A stretch of 64,000 nucleotides of DNA from Maribacter arenosus (GTDB taxonomy: Bacteria; Bacteroidota; Bacteroidia; Flavobacteriales; Flavobacteriaceae), in assembly GCF_014610845.1 (NCBI RefSeq), contig NZ_JABTCG010000001.1:434001-498000 (forward strand), given 5' to 3'. Shown one piece after another: positions 36,294 to 50,159 of the stretch (positions within the stretch are counted from its first letter, which is position 1; each line of letters starts with the position of its first letter). A program made the translations under genes and the position numbers. Below the pieces are notes generated by a model. That model saw only the letters and a list, made by a program, of their open reading frames with translations, did not search any database and was not told the origin of the DNA.

Positions 36294-38090
36294 TTGAAAG
36301 CTACTAGAATACTTTCGCACATATCATTTTTAGAATCCGAATTGAAAGCATATTCCTTTGAGGAATTGAATTCATGTGAGGGTGCTGAACTAAAAAGGAC
36401 TTTTGAATCTTTTAAAAGCTGCATAGAGGAAAAGCTCTTTAACCCATCTCCAAAGAGGGACCACAAAGCCCTGAATTCCAATGATGGGAACAGGGTACTT
36501 GTACAAAAGAAGATATCAAAACAAAAAGCCGTTCCAAATGCGACCAAACTTATAGCCAGGGTAAGCCATGAGATCAGAACCCCATTGAATGGGATTATTG
36601 GATTTAGTGATCTTCTGAAGGAAGATCACCTGACCGAAAATCAACTTCAGAAGGTCGAAGCGATTCACAACGCCTCTGACGCTCTGATGGAAATCGTTAA
36701 TGAACTCCTTGAATACGCCAAATTGTCAGAGGGACTTGAAGTGACCGAGCATATAGACTTTAATTTTCAGAGCGTTCTTGATAATGTCGAGTATCTATGT
36801 AAAACGCTGATTACAAAAAAAGATGTGGCGCTACTTTTGGAAGTTGAACCGGGAATCCCAAATGTACTAAGAGGAGATCCAAGCAAACTGTCCCAAGTAC
36901 TTCTCAACCTATTGGGAAATTCAATAAAATTTGTTGAAAAAGGGGAAATAAAACTTTCCATTACACAAAAAAGTCAACGCAACAAGAATTTGACCCTTGC
37001 CTTTAAAGTTTCAGATACCGGAATCGGTATTGCCCAAGAACAGTTAGGGGATATTTTCGATTCTTTTAAGCAAGTAGGTGAGGATACCTATGCCAAATAC
37101 GGCGGTAGCGGCTTAGGATTAAACATTGTAAAACAGATCATTGAACTCTTAGGCGGAAACATTACCGTGTCTAGCGAACTAGGCAAGGGAACTACGTTCG
37201 ATTTCGAAATACCTTACGAAAAAGGAGATAAAAGCAATGTTGTCCAAAGGTTCGTCGATACCGAGGCTTTAACTAATGCCGCGCAAAAGGTAAAGGGTAT
37301 GAGTATCGTGGTTTTTGAAGATAATACCATGAATCAACGGGTAATCGAACAACGTTTAAAAAATTGGGGAAGCAAGGTGTTTATAACTGATAATGGACAA
37401 AAAGGTCTTGATTATATAGCGGAAAACAAGGTTGATCTGGTATTGATGGATTTAAGAATGCCCGGTATGGATGGGTATACCATCACGAAAAAAATAAGGA
37501 ACCATTCAAACAAAAACATTAATCGTATCCCTGTGATAGCGATTACCGCAGATATTACCATTAGTGAAAAGGAAAATGGGAAAGCAATTGGCCTAAATGA
37601 TTTTATTCTTAAACCCTTTAACCCGGAAGAACTATTGTTGAAAATTGTTAATCTGGGTACAAATGATGTCATTTCAAAACCTAATGTCCTACCTAAAAAC
37701 AAGACCATGCAGACTACCGATAGATCAACACCCAAGGCAAGTTTATCTACTATGCAAGAAGAATGCATGGGGGATTATGGCTTCTTAACAGAGTTGGTAC
37801 GCTTATTCAAGCAAAATGTCCTGGAATTCGTAGGGGCCTATAGCGTGCATATGAAAAATGCCGATTGGGAAAATTTGGCCTTTGCAGCACATAAGATTAA
37901 AGCCGGTGTGAAATTGGTAGAAGCAAATGCCCTTTTGGATATTGTTCAGAGAATACAAGCCCTGGCCAAAACGAACACAACTTCCAATGCCAAGGAATTG
38001 GAAAACCTGAACAAGTCTTTTATAAAAGAGTACGAATTGGTTGAGATCACTATTGATAAAGAATTGGAGACCATAGGAAAAAAGAAGTAA
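36294..38090 (+). CDS. Hybrid sensor histidine kinase with receiver and HPt domains
   Basis: A 598-residue soluble phosphorelay protein with no membrane segment and no recognisable sensor domain. Order: a 90-residue N-terminal region, HisKA (VSHEIRTPLNGIIGFSDLL), HATPase (LLNLLGNSIKF, DTGIGIA, GGSGLGLNIVKQII), receiver (VDLVLMDLRMPGMDG) and HPt (phosphoryl-acceptor His in FAAHKIKAG near 530). No in-frame ATG precedes the H-box; TTG 36294 is the best start, and CTG 36232 or another upstream codon is possible. The receiver gene follows after six bases. A phosphorelay kinase-receiver-HPt-to-receiver is complete within two genes. Confidence 0.88.
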   Translation: MKATRILSHISFLESELKAYSFEELNSCEGAELKRTFESFKSCIEEKLFNPSPKRDHKALNSNDGNRVLVQKKISKQKAVPNATKLIARVSHEIRTPLNGIIGFSDLLKEDHLTENQLQKVEAIHNASDALMEIVNELLEYAKLSEGLEVTEHIDFNFQSVLDNVEYLCKTLITKKDVALLLEVEPGIPNVLRGDPSKLSQVLLNLLGNSIKFVEKGEIKLSITQKSQRNKNLTLAFKVSDTGIGIAQEQLGDIFDSFKQVGEDTYAKYGGSGLGLNIVKQIIELLGGNITVSSELGKGTTFDFEIPYEKGDKSNVVQRFVDTEALTNAAQKVKGMSIVVFEDNTMNQRVIEQRLKNWGSKVFITDNGQKGLDYIAENKVDLVLMDLRMPGMDGYTITKKIRNHSNKNINRIPVIAITADITISEKENGKAIGLNDFILKPFNPEELLLKIVNLGTNDVISKPNVLPKNKTMQTTDRSTPKASLSTMQEECMGDYGFLTELVRLFKQNVLEFVGAYSVHMKNADWENLAFAAHKIKAGVKLVEANALLDIVQRIQALAKTNTTSNAKELENLNKSFIKEYELVEITIDKELETIGKKK

Positions 38091-38096
38091 GACATA

Positions 38097-38468
38097 ATGG
38101 AGAAGAAAACACTTTTGCTGGCTGAAGACGATGAATTACTGGCTTCCTTGTTGAACTACCGTCTGGAAAAAGGAGGTTATAATGTAACCCATTGCCGTGA
38201 TGGAAAGGAAATGAAAAAAGCTTTATCCATTCGTGTACCGGACATCATCGTCAGTGATATCATGATGCCCTATTTTTCAGGAATGGAACTGATCGGCTTT
38301 GTGCGGAAAGAATTGAACTCAAAAGTCCCAATAATCATCATATCGTCTGCGGGTAATGAGGAAAATGTTTTGAATGCCTTTGAAATGGGGGCTAATGATT
38401 TCATTTCTAAACCCGTTAGCCCAACAGAACTATTGGTTCGTGTGGCAAGAGAATTGAAGAAAACCTAG
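38097..38468 (+). CDS. Single-domain response regulator
   Basis: This codes for 123 residues, receiver domain only: acidic pocket LLAEDDELL, phosphoacceptor Asp in DIIVSDIMMPYFSG (about residue 53), and Lys in FISKPVSP. It has no DNA-binding or enzymatic output, so it must act by protein contact. It lies six bases after the hybrid kinase and one base before the HEAT-type gene. The natural reading is that it takes phosphate from the HPt domain and acts on one of the downstream proteins. Confidence 0.9.
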   Translation: MEKKTLLLAEDDELLASLLNYRLEKGGYNVTHCRDGKEMKKALSIRVPDIIVSDIMMPYFSGMELIGFVRKELNSKVPIIIISSAGNEENVLNAFEMGANDFISKPVSPTELLVRVARELKKT

Positions 38469-38469
38469 T

Positions 38470-41205
38470 TTGCAAAAAAAACTGTCGACATATAAAAACT
38501 TTTTCCTGATAAGTTCCCCGACGATTCATGAAGATCTGTTATGGGATTTTTCAATATTGTTTGTGGGCTTAACCGTTGTGTACTTTGCTTCAGTTTTCTT
38601 CTTTAGAAATAAAATTTCCTCAAAACGAAAAAAGGTCAAGGAAAAGAAAAAGCAATTCTCGCCCATGATCAGTGAGTTTCTCTTTTTCGAATCGGATGCC
38701 CCAAAAGATGAAAAAAGTAATTATGTTAATCTCAAGATCGAAATTCGTGAGTTGATCAAAGATCGACTTCATAGAAAGGTGTTGACCGAAATACTATTAG
38801 ACCTAAGAAAAGACGTTTCTGGGGAAACACAAAAACGTCTGTTTGGTTTATACCAGGACCTAGGTCTGCATAAGGATGCATTCAATAAACTAAAAAGCTG
38901 GCGTTGGCAGATCGTTTCAAAAGGAATTTATGAACTCGCCCAAATGCAAGTGGCCGAATCCTATGGATTTATTAAAAGATTCATCAATGATAAAAGAGGA
39001 ACTATACGCAAGCAAGCCGAAATAGCGATAATTACACTTAACACAGAAGGGCTGAACTACTTTCTCGATACTACTGAATATAGAATATCCGAGTGGCAAC
39101 AGCTTAAGCTATTGGATGTAATCCGAAATCAGGACGACTTTCAGCCTCCGAGGTTCAAGGCTTGGTTAATTTCCAGTAATAAACATGTTGTTCTATTTGC
39201 CCTTAGATTGATCAAATATTATAATCAAAATGATGCGTTTGCCTCCATCACGGAATTGGTAAAACATCGTAACGACCAAATCAAAAAAGAAGCCATAAGT
39301 TGTATTAAGGAATTTCACGTACAAGAGGCCTTACCTACTTTAAAAATAGTTTTTTGGAAGAGTTCTGTGGATATAAAGATTGCGATTCTTGATGCTATCG
39401 CCGAGTTGGGAACTCCGAGCGATTTGAATTTTTTACGATCTATAGATAAAAAGGTATCCAATTTTTCTGTTCGGAGCAAGGCCTTAAGTAGTATCAATGC
39501 AATTGCACCCGAAAGCGTAATCCCTACACGGGGTATCGTACAACTAAAAGGAAATCAGACACCTAAAGATATCGTTATTAAAGATTTGGAGGATAAGGAA
39601 CATCAAATAGAGCAGGAAGTCGAGGACGTTATCGAGGAACTGGACAATGATGAGGAATTGAAACCAGTGGACAAAATAGAGGAAAAAGGAAAAACCATAC
39701 TATCAGAAGAAATGGACACTTCTTTTGACTTGGATGAACAGGCGTTACAAAGAGACCAAGTAACTGCGGAAGAGGAACCTATCGAAGAATCGGAACTTCC
39801 AAGCGCTATTGATTTCGCTAAGGAAACCAACCAGAATGAAGAATTACCGCATGAAGTGTCTGTCGAAGAAAATGATGAATTATTCGAAGTTGATGAAGCG
39901 GATCAAATAGAGGCCGCGGATATAAATGAAACAACCCCCACCTTAAACTTCGGGTTTTTACCCATCGTGGTCAATGCCGATGAAACTCAGGATTCGGTCA
40001 ATGAAGAAAAAGATGCGTCCTTGAACATCGAAGAAGAAGAACAGGATAGTACCATAAATGCCATGTATGAGGCATATGAACATTCACCCCCAACTTCTAT
40101 GGACCACCCTTTACCTATTGAGGTAAAAGAAGAAATAGAAATCAACGATGAATTTGACCCTATTGAATTTGCGTTTTTGCCCTTAGTTGTGGAAAACGAG
40201 ACCATAGGGGAAGAGAAAGAGATTTTAGACATGGAGCAGAATGAACCCAGTATTCAGCAAGCAAATGAAAGGAAGAATATCCCTGAAACCAGTGACTTGA
40301 CTATGGATTCAGAATTAAACGGAGGAGACACTCCGTTTTTTGACTTTTTACCTTTCGTTACAGAAAGTGAAGAGGTAGAGAGCGAAGATGCAATGCCTAT
40401 AAATGAATTCACGGATAGTACTGCACCTAATACAGAAGAGGCCCTTAACGAGGTAAAAACAGATATAACTGCCGACATGAAACCAAAAGAAACAGGGGAA
40501 GATTCCATTGAATGGCCAATTGAAGAAAACGACATGCCATTTTCACCGGTCTTGCGGTTTGCTTCCTTTGAGGATGTTGAGGATAACATTAGCGAGGATA
40601 CAAAATCTATTAGCCAAGAAACCTTGGACATTCTTTCTAGTCTTCCCAAACCAAAATTCTATGATGGGGAAACCATGATCACCATGCGTTTGTTGGATGA
40701 TATAGAGGAACTTGGCGATCAACGAGAAATACCCTTATTGAAGGAATTGCGTTCAAAATCGAACCAGGTCGTTATAAGAAATAGAATTGAGCAAATAATG
40801 CAGCAATTCAAGACTCGGGAACCTAAGACCTTTTCCAAGGACACCATAGCATCAATAAACGAAGAATTTAAACCATTCAGTGTTTTTGAAGATCTATTCA
40901 GGACCTGTGATATCGAGGCAAAACTGATTTTAATGGATGAAGTAGTCGCAGTAGGTGATGAAAAGGAATTGGGTTTCTTAAAAGCGCTTACCAACGATCC
41001 AGATAAAGACCTTCGGGAAAAAGCCATAAAGGTGCTTGAAGCATTGGATAGTAGGTTATTTCGGGAAAACCTGTCCTTTGATCCTTCTGAGACCTTTATA
41101 ACCGATGCCCCCAATAGTAAGACCGACCAAGGGAAGGATTATAATTCCTTATTTAAACAATTATTATCAATACCCACAAAAATTATAGATAAAATACATG
41201 GATAG
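38470..41205 (+). CDS. Large membrane-anchored HEAT-type protein with acidic repeat linker
   Basis: A 911-residue protein starting at TTG 38470. One membrane helix at about residues 24-46 (WDFSILFVGLTVVYFASVFFF) is followed by a basic stretch and a helical HEAT/armadillo-like region (about 85-350; AIAELGTPSDLNFLRS). Residues 380-700 are very acidic and probably disordered, and carry a repeated motif: FGFLPIVV at 494, FAFLPLVV at 567, FDFLPFVT at 624, and a weaker FSPVLRFA near 692. A second HEAT-like region follows (740-880; LDDIEELGDQREIPLLKELR). It looks like a cytoplasmic docking platform on the inner membrane. It overlaps the GT2 gene by eight bases. No assigned function. Confidence 0.8.
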   Translation: MQKKLSTYKNFFLISSPTIHEDLLWDFSILFVGLTVVYFASVFFFRNKISSKRKKVKEKKKQFSPMISEFLFFESDAPKDEKSNYVNLKIEIRELIKDRLHRKVLTEILLDLRKDVSGETQKRLFGLYQDLGLHKDAFNKLKSWRWQIVSKGIYELAQMQVAESYGFIKRFINDKRGTIRKQAEIAIITLNTEGLNYFLDTTEYRISEWQQLKLLDVIRNQDDFQPPRFKAWLISSNKHVVLFALRLIKYYNQNDAFASITELVKHRNDQIKKEAISCIKEFHVQEALPTLKIVFWKSSVDIKIAILDAIAELGTPSDLNFLRSIDKKVSNFSVRSKALSSINAIAPESVIPTRGIVQLKGNQTPKDIVIKDLEDKEHQIEQEVEDVIEELDNDEELKPVDKIEEKGKTILSEEMDTSFDLDEQALQRDQVTAEEEPIEESELPSAIDFAKETNQNEELPHEVSVEENDELFEVDEADQIEAADINETTPTLNFGFLPIVVNADETQDSVNEEKDASLNIEEEEQDSTINAMYEAYEHSPPTSMDHPLPIEVKEEIEINDEFDPIEFAFLPLVVENETIGEEKEILDMEQNEPSIQQANERKNIPETSDLTMDSELNGGDTPFFDFLPFVTESEEVESEDAMPINEFTDSTAPNTEEALNEVKTDITADMKPKETGEDSIEWPIEENDMPFSPVLRFASFEDVEDNISEDTKSISQETLDILSSLPKPKFYDGETMITMRLLDDIEELGDQREIPLLKELRSKSNQVVIRNRIEQIMQQFKTREPKTFSKDTIASINEEFKPFSVFEDLFRTCDIEAKLILMDEVVAVGDEKELGFLKALTNDPDKDLREKAIKVLEALDSRLFRENLSFDPSETFITDAPNSKTDQGKDYNSLFKQLLSIPTKIIDKIHG

Positions 41206-42628
41206 CGGCGTATTCAATATGATTTTAGAATACATAAACATTGTTTTCCTAATGTTTACGATTATCTTATTCACCATGTTTACGATTATGGGGTATTTAT
41301 CGACCCGTAATTCGATACATTATAGAAACAAGAACAGTTTTGGTGATCTTTCCAAAATCATGGCTTCTCCCTTATCACCAAGTATAACGATTATCGCACC
41401 GGCCTATAATGAGGGACTAACCATTGTGGAAAATATTCGCTCCCTTATGTCATTACGCTATGTCAACTACGAAGTGATGGTTGTCAACGATGGAAGTAAG
41501 GACGATACTTTGGAAAAAATGATCAAAGCCTATGATCTGATTCAGGTAGAATATGAACTAGACCCAAACTGGAAGAGCAAGCCCGTTAGGGGCATTTATA
41601 AATCCCGACGCAAGGCGTTTTCGAAGCTTACGGTTATCGATAAGGAGAATGGAGGAAAATCCGATGCTTTGAATACCGGAATTGCACTTTCCACGAATCA
41701 ATATGTGGGATGTATCGATGTAGATTGCCTTTTAATGCCCGACGCCTTGTTACATGTCGTCAAATCGTTCTATCAAAGATCGGAAAAACAGGTCATAGCC
41801 GTAGGGGGCGTAATCCGAATCGCCAACTCATGTGTAATTTCGGGCGGACAGTTGGAAGAAATTCGCTTGCCTAAAAATTGGTGGGCGAGATTTCAGGTTT
41901 TGGAATATACAAGATCGTTTATCTTAGGGAGAATGGCTTGGGGACGTATCGATAGCCTTCTGATCATTTCTGGTGCCTTCGGGTTTTTTGACCGCCAAAT
42001 TGCTTTGGAAGTTGGGGGTTATGATACCAATACGGTAGGGGAGGACATGGAGATTGTCTTCAAAATGCGTAGGCACATGCATGAACAAAGAAAACCCTAT
42101 ACTATAGAATATATGCCCGATCCGTTGTGCTGGACCGAGGTACCCGAGGACCCAAAAATATTGATCAATCAACGGGATCGATGGGCTAGGGGCAATCTAG
42201 AGACCCTTTTTAAGCATAAGGACATGTTCTTTAACTCCAAGTTCGGTAGACTGGGACTATTAAGTTATCCCTATTGGTTTTTTTATGAGTGGCTGGCTCC
42301 ATTATTGGAATTCTTCGGTTTTCTTACGGTTATCCTATTTTGGTATTTAGGCATTTTGAACTGGGATTTTTTCATAGCCATAACCGCTACCGTCTATGTA
42401 TTCTCGATCATGTTCTCTTTTTACGCCATTTTATGGGATGTGTACTCTTATAATGAATACAAAAAGACCAAGGATATATTGATCCTTATGAGTTGTGCTA
42501 TTCTTGAGCCCTTTATTTTTCATCCCGTTGTGGTATGGGCTGCGGTAAGGGGCAATTATAAAAAACTATTCAATATAAAGTCCGGCTGGGGATTCCAGGC
42601 ACGGAAAGGGTTTGTGAAAGCAACATAG
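41198..42628 (+). CDS. Processive GT2 glycosyltransferase (PgaC/BcsA-like)
   Basis: A 476-residue inner membrane glycosyltransferase. An N-terminal helix (10-32) precedes a GT-A domain with IIAPAYNEG, VNDGSKDDT, DKENGGKSDALNTG, DVDCLLMPDA and GEDMEIVFKM, then QRDRWARGN, the Q(Q/R)xRW signature of processive synthases. Three or more C-terminal helices follow (370-460). Such enzymes polymerise a sugar and extrude the chain through the membrane. The sugar is not predictable from sequence. The start overlaps the HEAT gene; an in-frame ATG at 41219 is an alternative. Confidence 0.92.
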   Translation: MDSGVFNMILEYINIVFLMFTIILFTMFTIMGYLSTRNSIHYRNKNSFGDLSKIMASPLSPSITIIAPAYNEGLTIVENIRSLMSLRYVNYEVMVVNDGSKDDTLEKMIKAYDLIQVEYELDPNWKSKPVRGIYKSRRKAFSKLTVIDKENGGKSDALNTGIALSTNQYVGCIDVDCLLMPDALLHVVKSFYQRSEKQVIAVGGVIRIANSCVISGGQLEEIRLPKNWWARFQVLEYTRSFILGRMAWGRIDSLLIISGAFGFFDRQIALEVGGYDTNTVGEDMEIVFKMRRHMHEQRKPYTIEYMPDPLCWTEVPEDPKILINQRDRWARGNLETLFKHKDMFFNSKFGRLGLLSYPYWFFYEWLAPLLEFFGFLTVILFWYLGILNWDFFIAITATVYVFSIMFSFYAILWDVYSYNEYKKTKDILILMSCAILEPFIFHPVVVWAAVRGNYKKLFNIKSGWGFQARKGFVKAT

Positions 42629-42637
42629 AAGTAAAAA

Positions 42638-45031
42638 ATGAATACGAGTCAACTAGATAGATACTCTTTAAAGCATTATACAAGATTGATGATCTCATTC
42701 TTTGGATGCCTTTTTGTGCTATCCGTATTCCAATATGCTTTCCTTTATTTTAAGGGAGTGGTCGATACCATCTTCGGAATAAGTCTAGTGCTTTACGTAG
42801 TACATCAAATCGGATTTACTTCCATTGTCGGTATCATTCTCACCTTTCCGTTTAATTTCTGGGAAAACCTGCGGCCGAGGTATGGATTCAACGTCGTATT
42901 TGCGATATTGACCTCACTGTTGATTATCGAGGCCATGCTGATCGGTTATTATTGTACCACCTTGGTGCCCTTGGGAGCTGATTTATTGGGCTATAGTTAC
43001 TCGGATATTAAAATGACCATTGCCAACTCGGGTGGTTTGGCCATATCGTTATACTTACTCATGGGTATTGCCGTAATCGTAGGATTGTTTTTGGGGTTGT
43101 ATCGTATTACCTCCAAATTCTATCACAAGATCAGTAGCATGTATCCTTTTACGATCATCCTATTCAGTATATTCATCGCTACACTTTTCACAGAGGGCAA
43201 GCCTATCAATCAGAATAAAACACAATACTTAGCGGTAAATCTGTATGCAAGTTCTACCGAGGATAATTCCTATACGGCCGATGTAGAATATCCTCTAATC
43301 AAAAGACCGGAAACCGAAAACGTTCTGGGCGCGTACTTTGAGCTTAAAGAAGAGAAACCGAACATTGTATTTATCATGGTCGAAGGATTGGGTAGGGACT
43401 TCGTAGGTGAGGGAGCCGAATTTGGAGGTTTTACCCCTTTTTTAGACGAATTAACCACCAAATCGCTCTATTGGGAAAATTGTTTGAGCAATACGGGAAG
43501 AACCTTTGGCGTATTACCTTCCTTATTGGGTTCCTTACCTTTTGGAAAAAGTGGATTCATGGAGTTGGAAGAATTCCCTAATAAATTGACGCTTTTTAGC
43601 GTATTGAAGAACAATGGCTACCATACTTCATTTTATCAAGGTACCAATAGTTCCTTTGACAATGTCGATAGGTTTCTAAAAAGTGAAAACCTGGATTTTG
43701 TCCTGGATAAATCGGGATTTGGAAACAAATATACCCAACAGGCCGAAGATGCGGCTGGATCTTCCTGGGGCTATCCCGATAAGGAACTCTTTAAAAAGAG
43801 TATGAGTTTGCCCAGGGAGGCTGACCAGCCCCGCTTGGAAGTTTATATGACGATAAGTACCCACGAACCTTTTATACCCCCTTCGCAAGCATATTATGAG
43901 AAAAAGGTAGAAGAGATCCTCTCCAAGGGAAAACATCAAGGGCGGGTGAAAAATATAATTGAAAAAAACAGTAATGTTTTTGCCACCCTTCTGTATACTG
44001 ACGAAGCTTTGAGCTATGTTTTCGAGGAGTATAAAAAACAACCGAATTATGATAACACTATTTTTATCGTAACTGGGGACCATAGGTTGATCCCTATTCC
44101 ACAGCGTAATAATATCAGTCGTTTTCATGTGCCCCTTATTATTTATAGTCCCATGCTGAAGGAGACCCGAAAAATGAGTGCGGTATCTTCTCATTTCGAT
44201 GTAACGCCTACGTTATTGGCGTTGCTGGGCGATAGCTTTGAGCTTAAAATGCCCAAAAAAGTAGCATGGATGGGAACTGCCCTTGATACCGAGACCCAAT
44301 TTAGGTCGATCAAGGAAATACCGCTTATGCGCAACAAGAATGAACTAAAGGAATATATCAGTGGGGAACTAGTGTACACGGACGGTGATGTCATGGAACT
44401 CGATGGGCAAATGGACTTGAATTCGACCTTTAGCGGTGGTTCAAAATTGGAGTCGAAACTCGATAATTTCAAATCGATGAACGCCTATGTGACCATGAAA
44501 AATAAGATTATCCCTGATAGTCTTGCGATTTTTTCCATTCAAAAGGAAGCATTCACCGATAGTGAAATTGTTTGGCTTAACAGTGTCTACAACGGACAGG
44601 ATTCTGACAAAGGATATTTTACGGCTAGGGACTTGGCGTTCGATAGGAAATATGAAAAAGCCCTACTGCTGTGTCGGTACAACCTTTCCGAGGCGCCAAG
44701 CCATATCGACACCAAGATATTAATGGGAAGAATAAACGCGTGGCAAGGCAAACATGATGAGGCCATAAAAATATTAAAGGAATGCATCGCCAAGAATCCC
44801 AATTATATCGATTCCTATTCCGCATTATTCGATGTGTATTATTGGTCGGACCGGTATAAGGAAGCCTTGGAACTCATTGAACTAGTACAGCAAAATAGCT
44901 CCAGTGTCGACGAGATTACCGATAAAATCGAGAGGGCACGCAGGCAGGCGCGTAAGATGCGAACCGCTGTAATATTCAAGAAACATTTGAAACAAACGGA
45001 GGCCCCTGTGGTATCCTTAGAATTCCAATGA
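42638..45031 (+). CDS. LtaS-like alkaline phosphatase-fold transferase with C-terminal TPRs
   Basis: A 797-residue protein with five or six N-terminal membrane helices (about 15-185), then an extracytoplasmic sulfatase/LTA-synthase domain at about 240-560: metal Glu249 in FIMVEGLGRDF, candidate nucleophile Thr289 in NTGRTFGVLPS (compare GKT in LtaS), and the metal pair in VTGDHRLIP near 480. Residues 670-780 form TPR-like helices. LtaS relatives transfer glycerol phosphate or phosphoethanolamine from phospholipid to a glycan. Here it is probably a decorating enzyme for the polymer made by the GT2. It begins nine bases after the GT2 gene and overlaps the next by four. Confidence 0.88.
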   Translation: MNTSQLDRYSLKHYTRLMISFFGCLFVLSVFQYAFLYFKGVVDTIFGISLVLYVVHQIGFTSIVGIILTFPFNFWENLRPRYGFNVVFAILTSLLIIEAMLIGYYCTTLVPLGADLLGYSYSDIKMTIANSGGLAISLYLLMGIAVIVGLFLGLYRITSKFYHKISSMYPFTIILFSIFIATLFTEGKPINQNKTQYLAVNLYASSTEDNSYTADVEYPLIKRPETENVLGAYFELKEEKPNIVFIMVEGLGRDFVGEGAEFGGFTPFLDELTTKSLYWENCLSNTGRTFGVLPSLLGSLPFGKSGFMELEEFPNKLTLFSVLKNNGYHTSFYQGTNSSFDNVDRFLKSENLDFVLDKSGFGNKYTQQAEDAAGSSWGYPDKELFKKSMSLPREADQPRLEVYMTISTHEPFIPPSQAYYEKKVEEILSKGKHQGRVKNIIEKNSNVFATLLYTDEALSYVFEEYKKQPNYDNTIFIVTGDHRLIPIPQRNNISRFHVPLIIYSPMLKETRKMSAVSSHFDVTPTLLALLGDSFELKMPKKVAWMGTALDTETQFRSIKEIPLMRNKNELKEYISGELVYTDGDVMELDGQMDLNSTFSGGSKLESKLDNFKSMNAYVTMKNKIIPDSLAIFSIQKEAFTDSEIVWLNSVYNGQDSDKGYFTARDLAFDRKYEKALLLCRYNLSEAPSHIDTKILMGRINAWQGKHDEAIKILKECIAKNPNYIDSYSALFDVYYWSDRYKEALELIELVQQNSSSVDEITDKIERARRQARKMRTAVIFKKHLKQTEAPVVSLEFQ

Positions 45032-46374
45032 ATAAAAAACGGACATATAGCCTCTTGTTATTCGGATTGATCTGCTTTTGGATTAGATCTCAGGATATCG
45101 CCTATAACGATGCGAAACCTACGGTCTTCGAAAATGCCGGCCATATGTTGTATGAGGGGAACCACAAGTCGGCCAAGGAACTTTTGCTTCAGGTGATTTC
45201 TAAAGAACCTGATAATTGGGAGGCCCGAACCTTGTTGGCCAGAGCCTATAGTTGGAATGGTGAATATGATAAGGCCCGGACTGCATTTAACAAGGTAATC
45301 GCTGTAGAACGTAACCAGGAAGCTATATGGGTTTCGGCCATAAAGAACGAGCTTTATGCCAAAAATGAAGCTACTGCTTTAGGATTGGCCAATAAAGCCC
45401 TGATATATCTAAAAAACAGTACCGAGGTAGAGCGACTAAAACAATTGGCTTTGGAACGCATCATGAGCAAAGAGTACCCCGCATTGGGATGGTACAATCA
45501 AGAATCTGCCCTGCGAACAAACAACGATTCTAAAAAGAAGCCGAAAGAGAAAACCAATTTGCCGATGACGACCGAAGCGATTTCGGAAGAAGAACCCTCT
45601 GGTACCATAAAACCAATTACCCCTGTGGACATGGACATTCAGAATAATAGGGTTTCCATTCGAAATGCATTTACGGTCTTTGACCAACGTTATGACCCTA
45701 TGATTTATTCCAGTGTTTCATATAGACGTCAAACCTTGGCAGGAAGCATTATACCTCGAGTTAATTATAGTAATCGTTTAGGTAAAAACGGACTACAATA
45801 TGATCTTGATTTCTATCCCAAGTTTTCGAAACGATTTTATGCTTATATAAATTACGGGTACTCGAACGCAACTATTTACCCAAACCATAAGCTTGGGGGC
45901 GATCTTTATGTTAATCTGCCTTGGGCCATGGAATTTTCGGCTGGGGGACGTTATATCAATTACGATACCAAGGATGTTTCCGTAGTCACGAATTCTATCG
46001 GGCATTATCGGGGGAATTATTATTTCTCCCTGCGTTCTTATATTACCCCTAGACCTGATAATTTAACTCGGGTATCTGGGAATATCTTGGTTCGTAAGTA
46101 CCTTAAGGATGCCGAAAACTATATGGGCGTTAATTTCGGAATGGGTTTTTCCCCGGAATTACGACAATTGACCTCGGGTGATGTGCTTCTGGCCGAAACC
46201 TTACTTTTTATAGAGTCCCAACGCCTAAGTTTCGAATATCAATTCACGCCCAAAAAAAAGAGTCCTAATATTTATAGAGCGAATATGGGAGTGACGCGAC
46301 AAGAATTGGTATATGATTCAGGGAACTACTTTTGGGCTATTTCTGGTGGATTCACCTATCAAGTGAAATTCTAG
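45028..46374 (+). CDS. TPR / YaiO-family outer membrane beta-barrel
   Basis: A 448-residue secreted outer membrane protein. A signal peptide (about 1-21) is followed by TPR helices (residues 30-150; NHKSAKELLLQVISKEPDNW in part, GEYDKARTAFNKV), a low-complexity linker (170-200) and a C-terminal beta-barrel of the YaiO type (residues 205-448; alternating aromatic strands such as RFYAYINYGYSNATIYP) ending in the aromatic FTYQVKF. A TPR domain joined to a barrel is the plan of PgaA- and AlgK/AlgE-type polysaccharide exporters. It is the last gene of the operon. Confidence 0.9.
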   Translation: MNKKRTYSLLLFGLICFWIRSQDIAYNDAKPTVFENAGHMLYEGNHKSAKELLLQVISKEPDNWEARTLLARAYSWNGEYDKARTAFNKVIAVERNQEAIWVSAIKNELYAKNEATALGLANKALIYLKNSTEVERLKQLALERIMSKEYPALGWYNQESALRTNNDSKKKPKEKTNLPMTTEAISEEEPSGTIKPITPVDMDIQNNRVSIRNAFTVFDQRYDPMIYSSVSYRRQTLAGSIIPRVNYSNRLGKNGLQYDLDFYPKFSKRFYAYINYGYSNATIYPNHKLGGDLYVNLPWAMEFSAGGRYINYDTKDVSVVTNSIGHYRGNYYFSLRSYITPRPDNLTRVSGNILVRKYLKDAENYMGVNFGMGFSPELRQLTSGDVLLAETLLFIESQRLSFEYQFTPKKKSPNIYRANMGVTRQELVYDSGNYFWAISGGFTYQVKF

Positions 46375-46544: not shown

Positions 46545-47858
46545 TTATTTTGATTGCTTTCCTTTGGATGGCAGTTGATCTCCAAAGGCCCATTTGTCGG
46601 CATACATACCATAAACCAATCCGATTTCGTTATCTAGCACATATGTCTCGTCCTTTCCAGGATCGAAGTTTACGTTATATACATAGACCTTTATACCTTG
46701 ATCACGTAATTGCTCCAATAGCTTTGTTTGGCTGGAAATCATCCTACGCGAGAGGGCTACATATTCAATATTATTGACAGATAGGTAATTAAGTTTATCA
46801 CCTACTAGACCCAACAAGGGTTCCTGGGAGAGCATGGCATTGATACCATTGTTCAAAGCTTCTTCGACCGCCATAACACTAAAAAGCTCCATGATCAACC
46901 TACTTTTATCCACAAAGCTGTCAGCAAAGGCGATAGGGTCATTTACCTTGTCCGTTACGAGTGTTGCATCCGGGTGAGCCGCAAACCAATCATTGATTCC
47001 TTTAAAATCCAAGGTATTGTAGTCCCCATAGATTTTATGTTTTTTGAATTCCGATAGGGTCGGGGGTAAGGTGCCCTTATAATCGGTGAACCGGGCCCAC
47101 ATCTTCCAATCATGGGCGGCAACGAGGTGTCCGTCCGAAGTTTCGATGATATCCAATTCAAAAAGACGGAAACCTTTCTTATAATTTTGATCAAGGGCAT
47201 CCTTTGAGTTGGTCGATTTAATTCCATCAACCTCCCCACCGGCATGGGCAATGAAACGATCTATGTTGGGCTCGTATTCATAATGTACTTTGGGAAAATA
47301 GATGTGGTTATCCGAAAGGGTTTGGGGAATTTCCAAGGTAATTGAAGTAGAAATATCATCCACTTGTTCAAGAATGCCTTGGTCCAAGTTATGCATAATA
47401 TAAGCCTGACGACTTTTAAGGGCACTTAATTTTGAAAAACCCATTTTGGCCAACTTTCCGGATTGTTCGCCTAAACTTTGTGAGGCAGAATCATGGGCAA
47501 GAATAGCAAATACAGCCTTGTTTTTTTGCATTCGCCATAAGATATCGACCAAGCTTGCAGAGGCTTCTTTGCTGGCATAGGTATCAAAGGTCCGGAATTC
47601 GAATTTATCGACGGTATTGAAATGTATAATTGTAAGTCCCCTTTCAATGGTCTCTGTTTGTCCCGCAATGGTAAACGTACTTCGCTCCTTGGCATTGAAT
47701 CCGTTGCTTTTCAGTTCAAGTGTGGGGGCCTCCAAAGCAGATCCTTCATATTCATAAGGGGTATGGCCAAAGGATACTTGAAAAAGGAGACTCCATAAGA
47801 CCAAGTAGAGAACGCTACTTGTTGTTATTGATCCAGGCTGTAGTTTTCCTTTTTTCAT
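46545..47858 (-). CDS. ILEI/FAM3-like domain fused to a glycerophosphodiester phosphodiesterase
   Basis: A 437-residue secreted protein with an N-terminal signal or anchor helix (13-31). Residues 45-170 resemble the ILEI/FAM3 (interleukin-like EMT inducer) domain: RGLTIIHFN, FRTFDTYAS, KNKAVFAILAHDSASQSL and KSRQAYIMH. Residues 205-437 are a GDPD/PI-PLC-type TIM barrel: FIAHAGGEVDG, RLFELDIIETSDGHLVAAHDW. The first active-site His and the Glu/Asp pair are present. Such enzymes hydrolyse glycerophosphodiesters; the ILEI fold is carbohydrate-binding in some eukaryotic proteins. It converges with the glycopolymer operon and could act on its phosphoglycerol-type product. Confidence 0.8.
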   Translation of the reverse strand: MKKGKLQPGSITTSSVLYLVLWSLLFQVSFGHTPYEYEGSALEAPTLELKSNGFNAKERSTFTIAGQTETIERGLTIIHFNTVDKFEFRTFDTYASKEASASLVDILWRMQKNKAVFAILAHDSASQSLGEQSGKLAKMGFSKLSALKSRQAYIMHNLDQGILEQVDDISTSITLEIPQTLSDNHIYFPKVHYEYEPNIDRFIAHAGGEVDGIKSTNSKDALDQNYKKGFRLFELDIIETSDGHLVAAHDWKMWARFTDYKGTLPPTLSEFKKHKIYGDYNTLDFKGINDWFAAHPDATLVTDKVNDPIAFADSFVDKSRLIMELFSVMAVEEALNNGINAMLSQEPLLGLVGDKLNYLSVNNIEYVALSRRMISSQTKLLEQLRDQGIKVYVYNVNFDPGKDETYVLDNEIGLVYGMYADKWAFGDQLPSKGKQSK

Positions 47859-48658: not shown

Positions 48659-49111
48659 TTAGTTTGCATTCGCACCAATGTCCGCCACCGCTAAGATAGC
48701 CGATTGGTTGCTACTATTGGCATGTATGGTCACATGGCCGTTCAACCCAAGTAAACCTTCATAGGTAATAGGATTGCCATTATCCAAGTTGGTTATGGTC
48801 GTATTACTTATTGAACACTCACAAACCTTTAGGGTGATGGCTACCGAACCACCTTCGGCAGCACTGTTAAAGCGAATAAAAGCCGGATTGGTGGCCGTAT
48901 AGGCACCTTGTAGTTCTATCAAAACATGGGTAGACCCATTATCTTCTTGAGTGAAGGTTACCGTCCCGGACACTCCGGAATTGGAAACATCGTAAATTTG
49001 ATATTCAACGCTCTGTAGAATAACGGCTTTAGCCACATCATCTTTACTACAACCAATAAAAACCAAGGCAAGGGTTAAGGCAAGAAAGGAGAGGGAACTT
49101 TTCATTTTCAT
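48659..49111 (-). CDS. Small lipoprotein, paralogue A
   Basis: A 150-residue predicted lipoprotein: signal peptide with lipobox LVFIGC (lipid Cys at 21), then a beta-rich domain with TFTQEDNGSTHVLIELQGAY, NPAFIRFNSAAEGGSVAITL, two Cys in KVCECSIS and the ending VADIGAN (quoted segments are 20 residues or fewer). It is about three quarters identical by eye to the gene at 49452. The pattern faintly recalls CHRD-type domains, but the key His residues do not match. Function unknown; probably exposed at the cell surface or in the periplasm. Confidence 0.8.
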   Translation of the reverse strand: MKMKSSLSFLALTLALVFIGCSKDDVAKAVILQSVEYQIYDVSNSGVSGTVTFTQEDNGSTHVLIELQGAYTATNPAFIRFNSAAEGGSVAITLKVCECSISNTTITNLDNGNPITYEGLLGLNGHVTIHANSSNQSAILAVADIGANAN

Positions 49112-49451: not shown

Positions 49452-49904
49452 TTAATTTGCATTTGATCCAATATCGGCTACGGCTACAATAGGGGCTTGG
49501 GTACCGACTCCGCTATGAATGGTAATATGCCCATTTAATTGGATCAAACCTTCATAGGTAATAGGACTGCCATTATCCAATTTGGTGATGGTCGTATTGC
49601 TAATGGCACATTCACAGGTGTGTAAAGTAATTGCCACGGTACCGCCTTCAGCGGCACTGTTAAAGCGGATATAGGCCGGATTCTCGGAGGTATAGGCACC
49701 TTGTAGTTCTATCAACACATGGGTAGAGCCATTGTCTTCCTGGGTAAAGGTCGCTTTGCCCGAGATTCCGGAATTGGAAATATCATAAATGCTGTATTCA
49801 ACACTTTGAAGTATGACGGCTTCGGCAACATCATCTTTATTACAACCTAGAAAAAGAAGCATTATTACCGATACAGTGACGGAAAGGGAACTTTTAAATT
49901 TCAT
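49452..49904 (-). CDS. Small lipoprotein, paralogue B
   Basis: A 150-residue lipoprotein from ATG 49904 (an ATG six codons upstream is possible but spoils the signal peptide). Lipobox MLLFLGC, then the same beta-rich domain as paralogue A with ECAISNTTITKLDNG, GTQAPIVAVADIGSN. The two genes are a tandem duplication with independent terminators. They differ mostly in the signal peptide and in loop residues. No function is known. Confidence 0.8.
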   Translation of the reverse strand: MKFKSSLSVTVSVIMLLFLGCNKDDVAEAVILQSVEYSIYDISNSGISGKATFTQEDNGSTHVLIELQGAYTSENPAYIRFNSAAEGGTVAITLHTCECAISNTTITKLDNGSPITYEGLIQLNGHITIHSGVGTQAPIVAVADIGSNAN

Positions 49905-50159
49905 AATACGGGGCTTTAACACTACGAATGTATTTTACAACATCTAAACAGAAACTGATAAATATCAGGTTTAGGTGTTATTTAGTCGAAATTCATAATT
50001 TTTCGATGTATGGCACGGACCTAGAACTTTTGAACATTCAATATTTCGTTTACGTGCTTTTCTAAATTACCGGAGATGTTTTACGCGAGTTTTTTGAATT
50101 GTTTTAGGGATAATATAAAAAGTCGGCGAGATACAGCGTTGGCCTTCAATGGGTAGGAC

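Follow-up and report, generated by a model that had tools for sequence, protein, structure and literature searches.

How might a bacterium govern the secretion of a polysaccharide when its genome yields no match to the usual c-di-GMP proteins? The question is raised by six successive genes at positions 36294-46374 of a 64,000-nucleotide stretch of Maribacter arenosus DNA (hereafter the window, meaning that whole stretch). Well-studied exopolysaccharide synthases of the Pga/Bcs-like type are driven by cyclic di-GMP (c-di-GMP). In the genome around the window (4.17 Mb, 24 contigs, 99.99% complete) neither GGDEF nor PilZ matches were found, MshEN-type binding domains not being among those searched for. 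The six genes encode a hybrid histidine kinase, a lone receiver, a HEAT-repeat protein, a GT2 synthase, an LtaS-like enzyme and a YaiO barrel. We consider it fairly probable that they specify an exopolysaccharide machine of the synthase-dependent type, whose inner-membrane GT2 is controlled post-translationally by a phosphorelay acting via the receiver and the HEAT protein.

The six-gene unit and its constant core

All six open reading frames (ORFs) lie on the + strand, with coordinates as originally predicted:

36294..38090, + strand: soluble hybrid histidine kinase (Pfam, hydropathy; Hpt match just below the cut-off)
38097..38468, + strand: lone receiver, 123 amino acids, phospho-acceptor Asp54, without output domain (Pfam)
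38470..41205, + strand: membrane-anchored HEAT-repeat protein, 911 amino acids (Pfam, hydropathy, structure model)
41198..42628, + strand: processive-type GT2 synthase, 476 amino acids, 4 predicted transmembrane (TM) segments (Pfam, motifs, hydropathy, profile matches)
42638..45031, + strand: LtaS-like sulfatase-fold membrane enzyme, 797 amino acids, 5 predicted TM segments, C-terminal TPRs (Pfam/NCBIfam, hydropathy)
45028..46374, + strand: TPR plus YaiO outer-membrane beta-barrel, 448 amino acids (Pfam; 14 strands in the model, residues 207-447)

The junctions between successive genes measure +6, +1, -8, +9 and -4 bases, bearing out the original prediction of gaps and overlaps below ten bases, and the spacing suggests a single transcript. 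A scan of the locus for promoter-like signals (19, against 29.8 in shuffled sequence) and terminator-like signals (8, against 10.8) was uninformative. Pfam and NCBIfam searches returned the predicted domain order, namely HK-receiver-HPt, lone receiver, HEAT, GT2, LtaS-like plus TPR, and TPR plus YaiO. By hydropathy scan, TM counts were 0 for the kinase and for the receiver, 1 for HEAT, 4 for GT2 and 5 for the LtaS-like protein.

Conservation was examined at two distances. Near relatives were represented by 71 fetched loci containing the LtaS-like protein, the best-matching named ones coming largely from Maribacter, Zobellia and other Flavobacteriaceae. The exact order kinase slot-receiver-HEAT-GT2-LtaS-like-YaiO was present in 59 of these; among the 12 exceptions nine are truncated by a contig end, the HEAT ORF of L029 is split, L092 is rearranged, and L073 retains the receiver with its ORF miscalled. 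Since flanking genes are also common to this group, the order in near loci is by itself weak evidence.

The phylum was therefore sampled with one draw of 392 Bacteroidota genomes and a profile search for each part. Matches were found in 40 genomes for the LtaS-like protein (E<=1e-40), 99 for GT2 (E<=1e-80) and 98 for YaiO. GT2 and YaiO occurred together in 97, leaving three discordant genomes, two with GT2 only (G177 and G401) and one with YaiO only (G368). As a weak YaiO-like match adjoins the GT2 gene of G401, this overlap may be understated. Counted by genus, GT2 was present in 53 of 178 and YaiO in 52 of 178. All 40 genomes with the LtaS-like protein carry both GT2 and YaiO, whereas 59 of the 99 GT2 genomes lack the LtaS-like protein.

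The tightest association is that of HEAT with GT2. Among 109 GT2 genes in loci L094-L241 (those of G010, G013 and G017 came from the relatives search rather than the draw), a HEAT profile built from 16 sequences and not iterated placed a HEAT gene directly upstream and on the same strand in 106, or 91/94 when the profile-seed loci are set aside; it matched 3 of 1593 other ORFs. After iteration, and with the window included, the count was 108/110. The median gap, taken over 170 pairs from near and far loci, is -7 bases. Because the order is kept in 59/71 near loci and the HEAT-GT2 pair phylum-wide, the gene set is not a chance assembly. HEAT and GT2 form the constant pair, the receiver and YaiO are its usual company, and the kinase and LtaS-like protein vary. 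The six-gene order thus holds among near relatives but is not fixed across the phylum, where the receiver-HEAT-GT2 core extends well beyond them; what is widespread is a HEAT-GT2-YaiO module, in most cases with a lone receiver, and the six-gene unit is its local version.

The putative phosphorelay and the HEAT protein

The kinase contains HisKA (residues 85-147), HATPase (194-309) and receiver (338-451) domains followed by a C-terminal HPt at about 500-567, whose Hpt match of 22.0 bits falls just under the Pfam cut-off of 24.6. No sensor domain was recognised by Pfam and no TM segment was predicted by hydropathy. As had been proposed, Pfam detected no DNA-binding output in either the kinase or the lone receiver. 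Together with the separate terminal receiver, these domains (the HPt below its cut-off) would supply all the parts of a multistep phosphorelay.

This slot is variable in relatives. In 63 near loci it holds a full kinase in 40, a protein of under 400 amino acids without an H-box in 20, and another form in 3; the HPt motif pattern is present in 50 of the 63. Some of the 20 HPt-only slots may be broken or split kinases, since the short slot protein of L028, L055 and L059 is preceded by another short ORF with a kinase match. The 252-amino-acid slot protein of L093 has Hpt as its sole Pfam domain, slightly under the cut-off, and that of L131 has a receiver plus Hpt, both slightly under theirs. Loss of the kinase core with retention of HPt and receiver is what a relay supplied in trans would lead one to expect. 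The receiver aspartate is kept in 134 of 138 receivers beside HEAT genes (64/64 near, 70/74 far), and in 83 of 110 loci including the window a small receiver is found, on either strand, no more than four genes from GT2.

Pfam identifies the HEAT protein through HEAT_2. Its model consists of one TM helix and two helical regions separated by a long acidic stretch:

38548..38604, + strand: predicted TM segment, residues 27-45 (hydropathy; the model helix spans 21-71)
38704..39504, + strand: HEAT solenoid, residues 79-345, common to distant relatives (model, alignment)
39538..40602, + strand: acidic stretch, residues 357-711, low-confidence (pLDDT <50), probably disordered
39955..39969, + strand: FLPxV-type motif 1, residue 496 (pattern scan)
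40174..40188, + strand: FLPxV-type motif 2, residue 569 (pattern scan)
40345..40359, + strand: FLPxV-type motif 3, residue 626 (pattern scan)
40615..41067, + strand: second helical-repeat domain, residues 716-866 (structure model)

Compared with the PDB, the model resembles designed armadillo repeats, importin alpha and the PP2A scaffold, which are generic solenoids. Residues 376-735 are 31% D/E. Within 65 HEAT proteins, 120 FLPxV-type motifs occur after residue 370, whereas the other proteins encoded in these loci give an expectation of 2.0; at least two are present in 51 of the 65 and none in 10. The stricter pattern FxFLP is missing from 44 of 66, and since the looser pattern was picked after inspection we treat the enrichment as an exploratory lead. 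The HEAT protein of L159 (L159:3425-5002) has an extra signal-peptide-like N-terminal part of ~160 residues ahead of its TM helix; this part might serve as a sensor in the periplasm.

From these parts we propose the following sequence of events. Phosphate would be loaded onto the HPt domain by the hybrid kinase of the operon or, in some relatives, by one acting in trans, and HPt would hand it on to Asp54 of the lone receiver, which would then dock on the membrane-anchored HEAT solenoid. The solenoid would sit on the GT2 and switch polymerisation on or off. The GT2 would polymerise sugar and thread the chain across the inner membrane; on the periplasmic side the LtaS-like protein would decorate the chain where it is catalytically alive and serve as a structural part where it is dead, and the TPRs and YaiO barrel would carry the chain out. 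What conservation and gene adjacency back is the set of parts and the fact that they go together, rather than contacts, phosphate flow or product; direct control from receiver through HEAT to synthase, as originally predicted, is accordingly putative.

Alternatively, HEAT might be a subunit that constitutively helps to assemble or stabilise the GT2, with the receiver and phosphorelay acting elsewhere and sharing only co-expression. Such a subunit would account for a HEAT-GT2 adjacency (106/109) tighter than the linkage of the receiver (83/110), and for L186, L187 and L191, in which the receiver is found two genes past YaiO, on its downstream side, instead of beside HEAT. It sits less well with the position of the receiver, immediately before HEAT in most loci listed and in 59/71 near loci, and with the lack of any other output domain; we regard this explanation as unlikely, and retain HEAT as the putative link between receiver and synthase.

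The synthase, the barrel and the LtaS-like protein

The GT2 motifs D98, D174/D176, E282-D283 and QRxRW (325-329) are invariant across 15 diverse copies. Its nearest NCBIfam model is PgaC/IcaA (TIGR03937, E=1.1e-41), at 143.1 bits under the equivalog cut-off of 422.3. Chondroitin synthase was the best of its profile matches, which also included BcsA and, over positions 14-390, hyaluronan synthase.

YaiO exceeds the curated cut-offs of both PF19413 (216.9 vs 23.9 bits, E=2.5e-64) and TIGR04390 (186.6 vs 32 bits), and its gene lies within four genes of GT2 in 86/110 loci. An AlphaFold2 model (pLDDT 84, pTM 0.51) shows TPR helices and a 14-strand barrel. When this model was compared with the PDB by Foldseek, BcsC took ranks 1 and 2, 4y25 ('bacterial polysaccharide outer membrane secretin', which we take to be PgaA) rank 4 and PelBC rank 6, with modest TM-scores of 0.25-0.63 by target for the export channels listed and OmpG. 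The predicted likeness to outer-membrane export systems is thus matched by the modelled fold. A bridge between the TPRs of the LtaS-like and YaiO proteins was also considered; the one match (42 residues, E=2e-5) is given no weight because TPRs often match each other.

Synthase-dependent pathways have been described as an inner-membrane synthase, a TPR protein and a 16-18-strand outer-membrane barrel (PMC9601211). With Pga, Bcs, Alg and Pel the locus appears to share an inner-membrane processive-type GT2, TPRs that are presumably periplasmic, and an outer-membrane beta-barrel. It differs from them in the predicted 14 strands, the LtaS-like enzyme and the genome without GGDEF or PilZ match, and in that HEAT and a lone receiver stand where a c-di-GMP input of the PilZ or PgaD type would be. 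As 14 strands fall outside the 16-18 of that description, we suggest that the locus works like this family rather than strictly belonging to it. The nearest worked-out analogue found is NfrBA of E. coli, described as the N4 glycan receptor synthase and a TPR barrel, driven by c-di-GMP (PMC8669469, PMC8669472). Both have a GT2 and TPR/barrel pair, in the Maribacter locus for a putative secreted glycan; there, control apparently resides in separate HEAT and receiver proteins.

In E. coli K-12, yaiO lies near the putative glucosyltransferase gene yaiP, which independently points to an association of YaiO barrels with enzymes of this kind. YaiP shows 26% identity to the window GT2 over 242 residues (E=1e-12). 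The two YaiO proteins are linked via PF19413, their pairwise BLASTP comparison not being significant (E=0.20). The yaiO-yaiX-yaiP-yaiS cluster thus resembles the locus in placing a YaiO barrel gene near a GT2-type glycosyltransferase gene, but has no HEAT, receiver or LtaS-like gene. We found no description of the module among the matches listed from the open PMC literature; subscription papers or preprints could hold one.

The LtaS-like protein is a variable part. Its TM-anchored sulfatase-fold domain is nearest in structure to 3lxq (uncharacterised) and LtaS-type structures, and the window copy has E249, T289, H409, D481 and H482, presumably the metal and nucleophile positions of LtaS-type enzymes. 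Its match to the NF053595 equivalog (65.6 bits) is under the cut-off of 970. Where it departs from LtaS and OpgB is in its C-terminal TPRs, its operon with a GT2, its fusions and its dead copies. Fusions of GT2 with the LtaS-like protein, of 1134-1270 amino acids, occur in 13 fetched loci (that of L152 confirmed by Pfam) and argue that the two proteins work together.

Perhaps the product is retained in the periplasm or attached to a lipid, in the manner of the osmoregulated periplasmic glucans made by the OpgH GT2 with OpgB, YaiO not being an exporter. The LtaS-like protein has weak OpgB-type matches in keeping with this (NF003000, E=1.4e-14; NF009027, E=1e-12), far under the cut-offs. It is at odds with the co-occurrence of GT2 and YaiO in 97 of the 100 genomes having either, with the export-channel-like fold of the YaiO model, and with the 59 GT2 genomes that lack an LtaS-like protein, and we think it improbable; export through YaiO remains the reading that we prefer.

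Decoration with phosphoglycerol was considered as the essential step. We reject this, since the LtaS-like protein is found in 40/392 genomes against 99/392 for GT2, and 8 of 115 aligned copies are dead. Its gene, which can be absent, lies within four genes of GT2 in 39/110 loci. All five active-site positions are intact in 99 copies; Ser replaces Thr in 3, another 5 are partial, and residues have been lost in 8 (L073, L082, L094, L095, L134, L138, L140, L142). A GT2 tree was built for 102 loci, the remaining 13 of the 115 being truncated (8) or without GT2 in the locus (5); on it the dead state needs 5 changes, 3 of them forced by the starred branches.

The dead copies remain full length. Their nonsynonymous (pN) and synonymous (pS) differences are 0.146 and 0.715 for L094/L095 and 0.195 and 0.785 for L134/L138; the contrast is smaller for L140/L142 (0.429 and 0.789), and pS approaches saturation. 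Live pairs are under more constraint (L064/L033, for example, with pN 0.050 and pS 0.557). Constraint on the dead copies thus appears relaxed, not gone. As they are full length and pN is well below pS in two of the three pairs, the fold is probably useful without catalysis.

Downstream of the six genes lies one further feature:

46545..47858, - strand: GDPD-domain protein with an ILEI-like stretch, a neighbour probably outside the core (Pfam)

This neighbour was seen beside many close relatives only. It is missing from 8/8 dead loci, but also from 16/65 near intact loci and from all loci from L094 on. Its role as a matching eraser is not claimed: three independent pairs (starred branches) gave the same direction 1.6 times on average, with a median p of 0.5. 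Further along the window, two small, near-alike lipoprotein-like ORFs (48659-49111 and 49452-49922) look by eye like a tandem duplication, and one of them has a weak PLCC match only. Among other loci, L132 (L132:13178-17000) carries two sets: the one with the LtaS-like protein is followed immediately downstream by another HEAT-GT2-YaiO set and then by DUF4838. In 12 fetched loci (e.g. L186:4658-6892 and L199:2641-4965) a core gene has a DUF4838 (PF16126) protein as its direct neighbour, which might hydrolyse or edit the polymer. In 13 fetched loci a ~390-amino-acid, membrane-anchored-looking protein with no Pfam match at E<=0.01 (L152:7813-9000 and relatives) lies 1-3 genes from GT2, LtaS-like or YaiO genes.

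c-di-GMP and a possible wider synthase class

Several observations weigh against a phosphorelay-controlled export machine. The association of GT2 with YaiO (Fisher p = 5.6e-89) comes from a statistic that ignores phylogeny, and YaiO is not within four genes of GT2 in 24/110 loci. Ordinary porins score close behind the export channels for the YaiO model, and its 14 strands fall short of known export barrels. On the regulatory side, no small receiver lies within four genes of GT2 in 27/110 loci, the receiver aspartate is replaced in 4/138, and HEAT is poorly conserved in sequence (15-27% identity to distant relatives in the alignment). Finally, the receiver slot of L223 (L223:4667-6454) is occupied by a receiver-GGDEF-receiver protein, and a GGDEF protein (L234) and HD-domain proteins (L232-L233) stand beside the module elsewhere.

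Because of these GGDEF and HD proteins in other lineages, the module cannot be called c-di-GMP-free throughout, although the original statement that the system lacks c-di-GMP agrees with the missing GGDEF and PilZ matches of the window genome. Control of the synthase by c-di-GMP as in PgaCD, BcsA or NfrB, which those proteins and the GGDEF matches (E<=1e-10) in 28/99 GT2 genomes would favour, is very improbable given that neither GGDEF nor PilZ gave a match in the window genome and that GGDEF, at the same threshold, is found in 0/47 GT2 genomes of its class. Across the draw, a GGDEF match at this threshold is missing from 217/392 genomes.

More tentatively, we suggest that these loci (in 99/392 sampled Bacteroidota genomes, about a quarter) represent a distinct synthase class in which the HEAT protein, permanently paired with the GT2, is the universal control subunit and lineage-specific signals are plugged in. 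The signal might run from HPt to a lone receiver in GGDEF-free lineages, and through receiver-GGDEF fusions or GGDEF/HD proteins elsewhere. In this proposal the Maribacter group has added an acidic tether with 2-3 FLPxV docking motifs, and the LtaS-like protein has repeatedly turned into a structural pseudoenzyme.

The locus suggests a route by which GGDEF-free Bacteroidota could control polymer secretion, and names HEAT as the candidate control subunit. The HPt-only relatives, the GT2-LtaS-like fusions and the retained dead LtaS-like proteins offer natural experiments.

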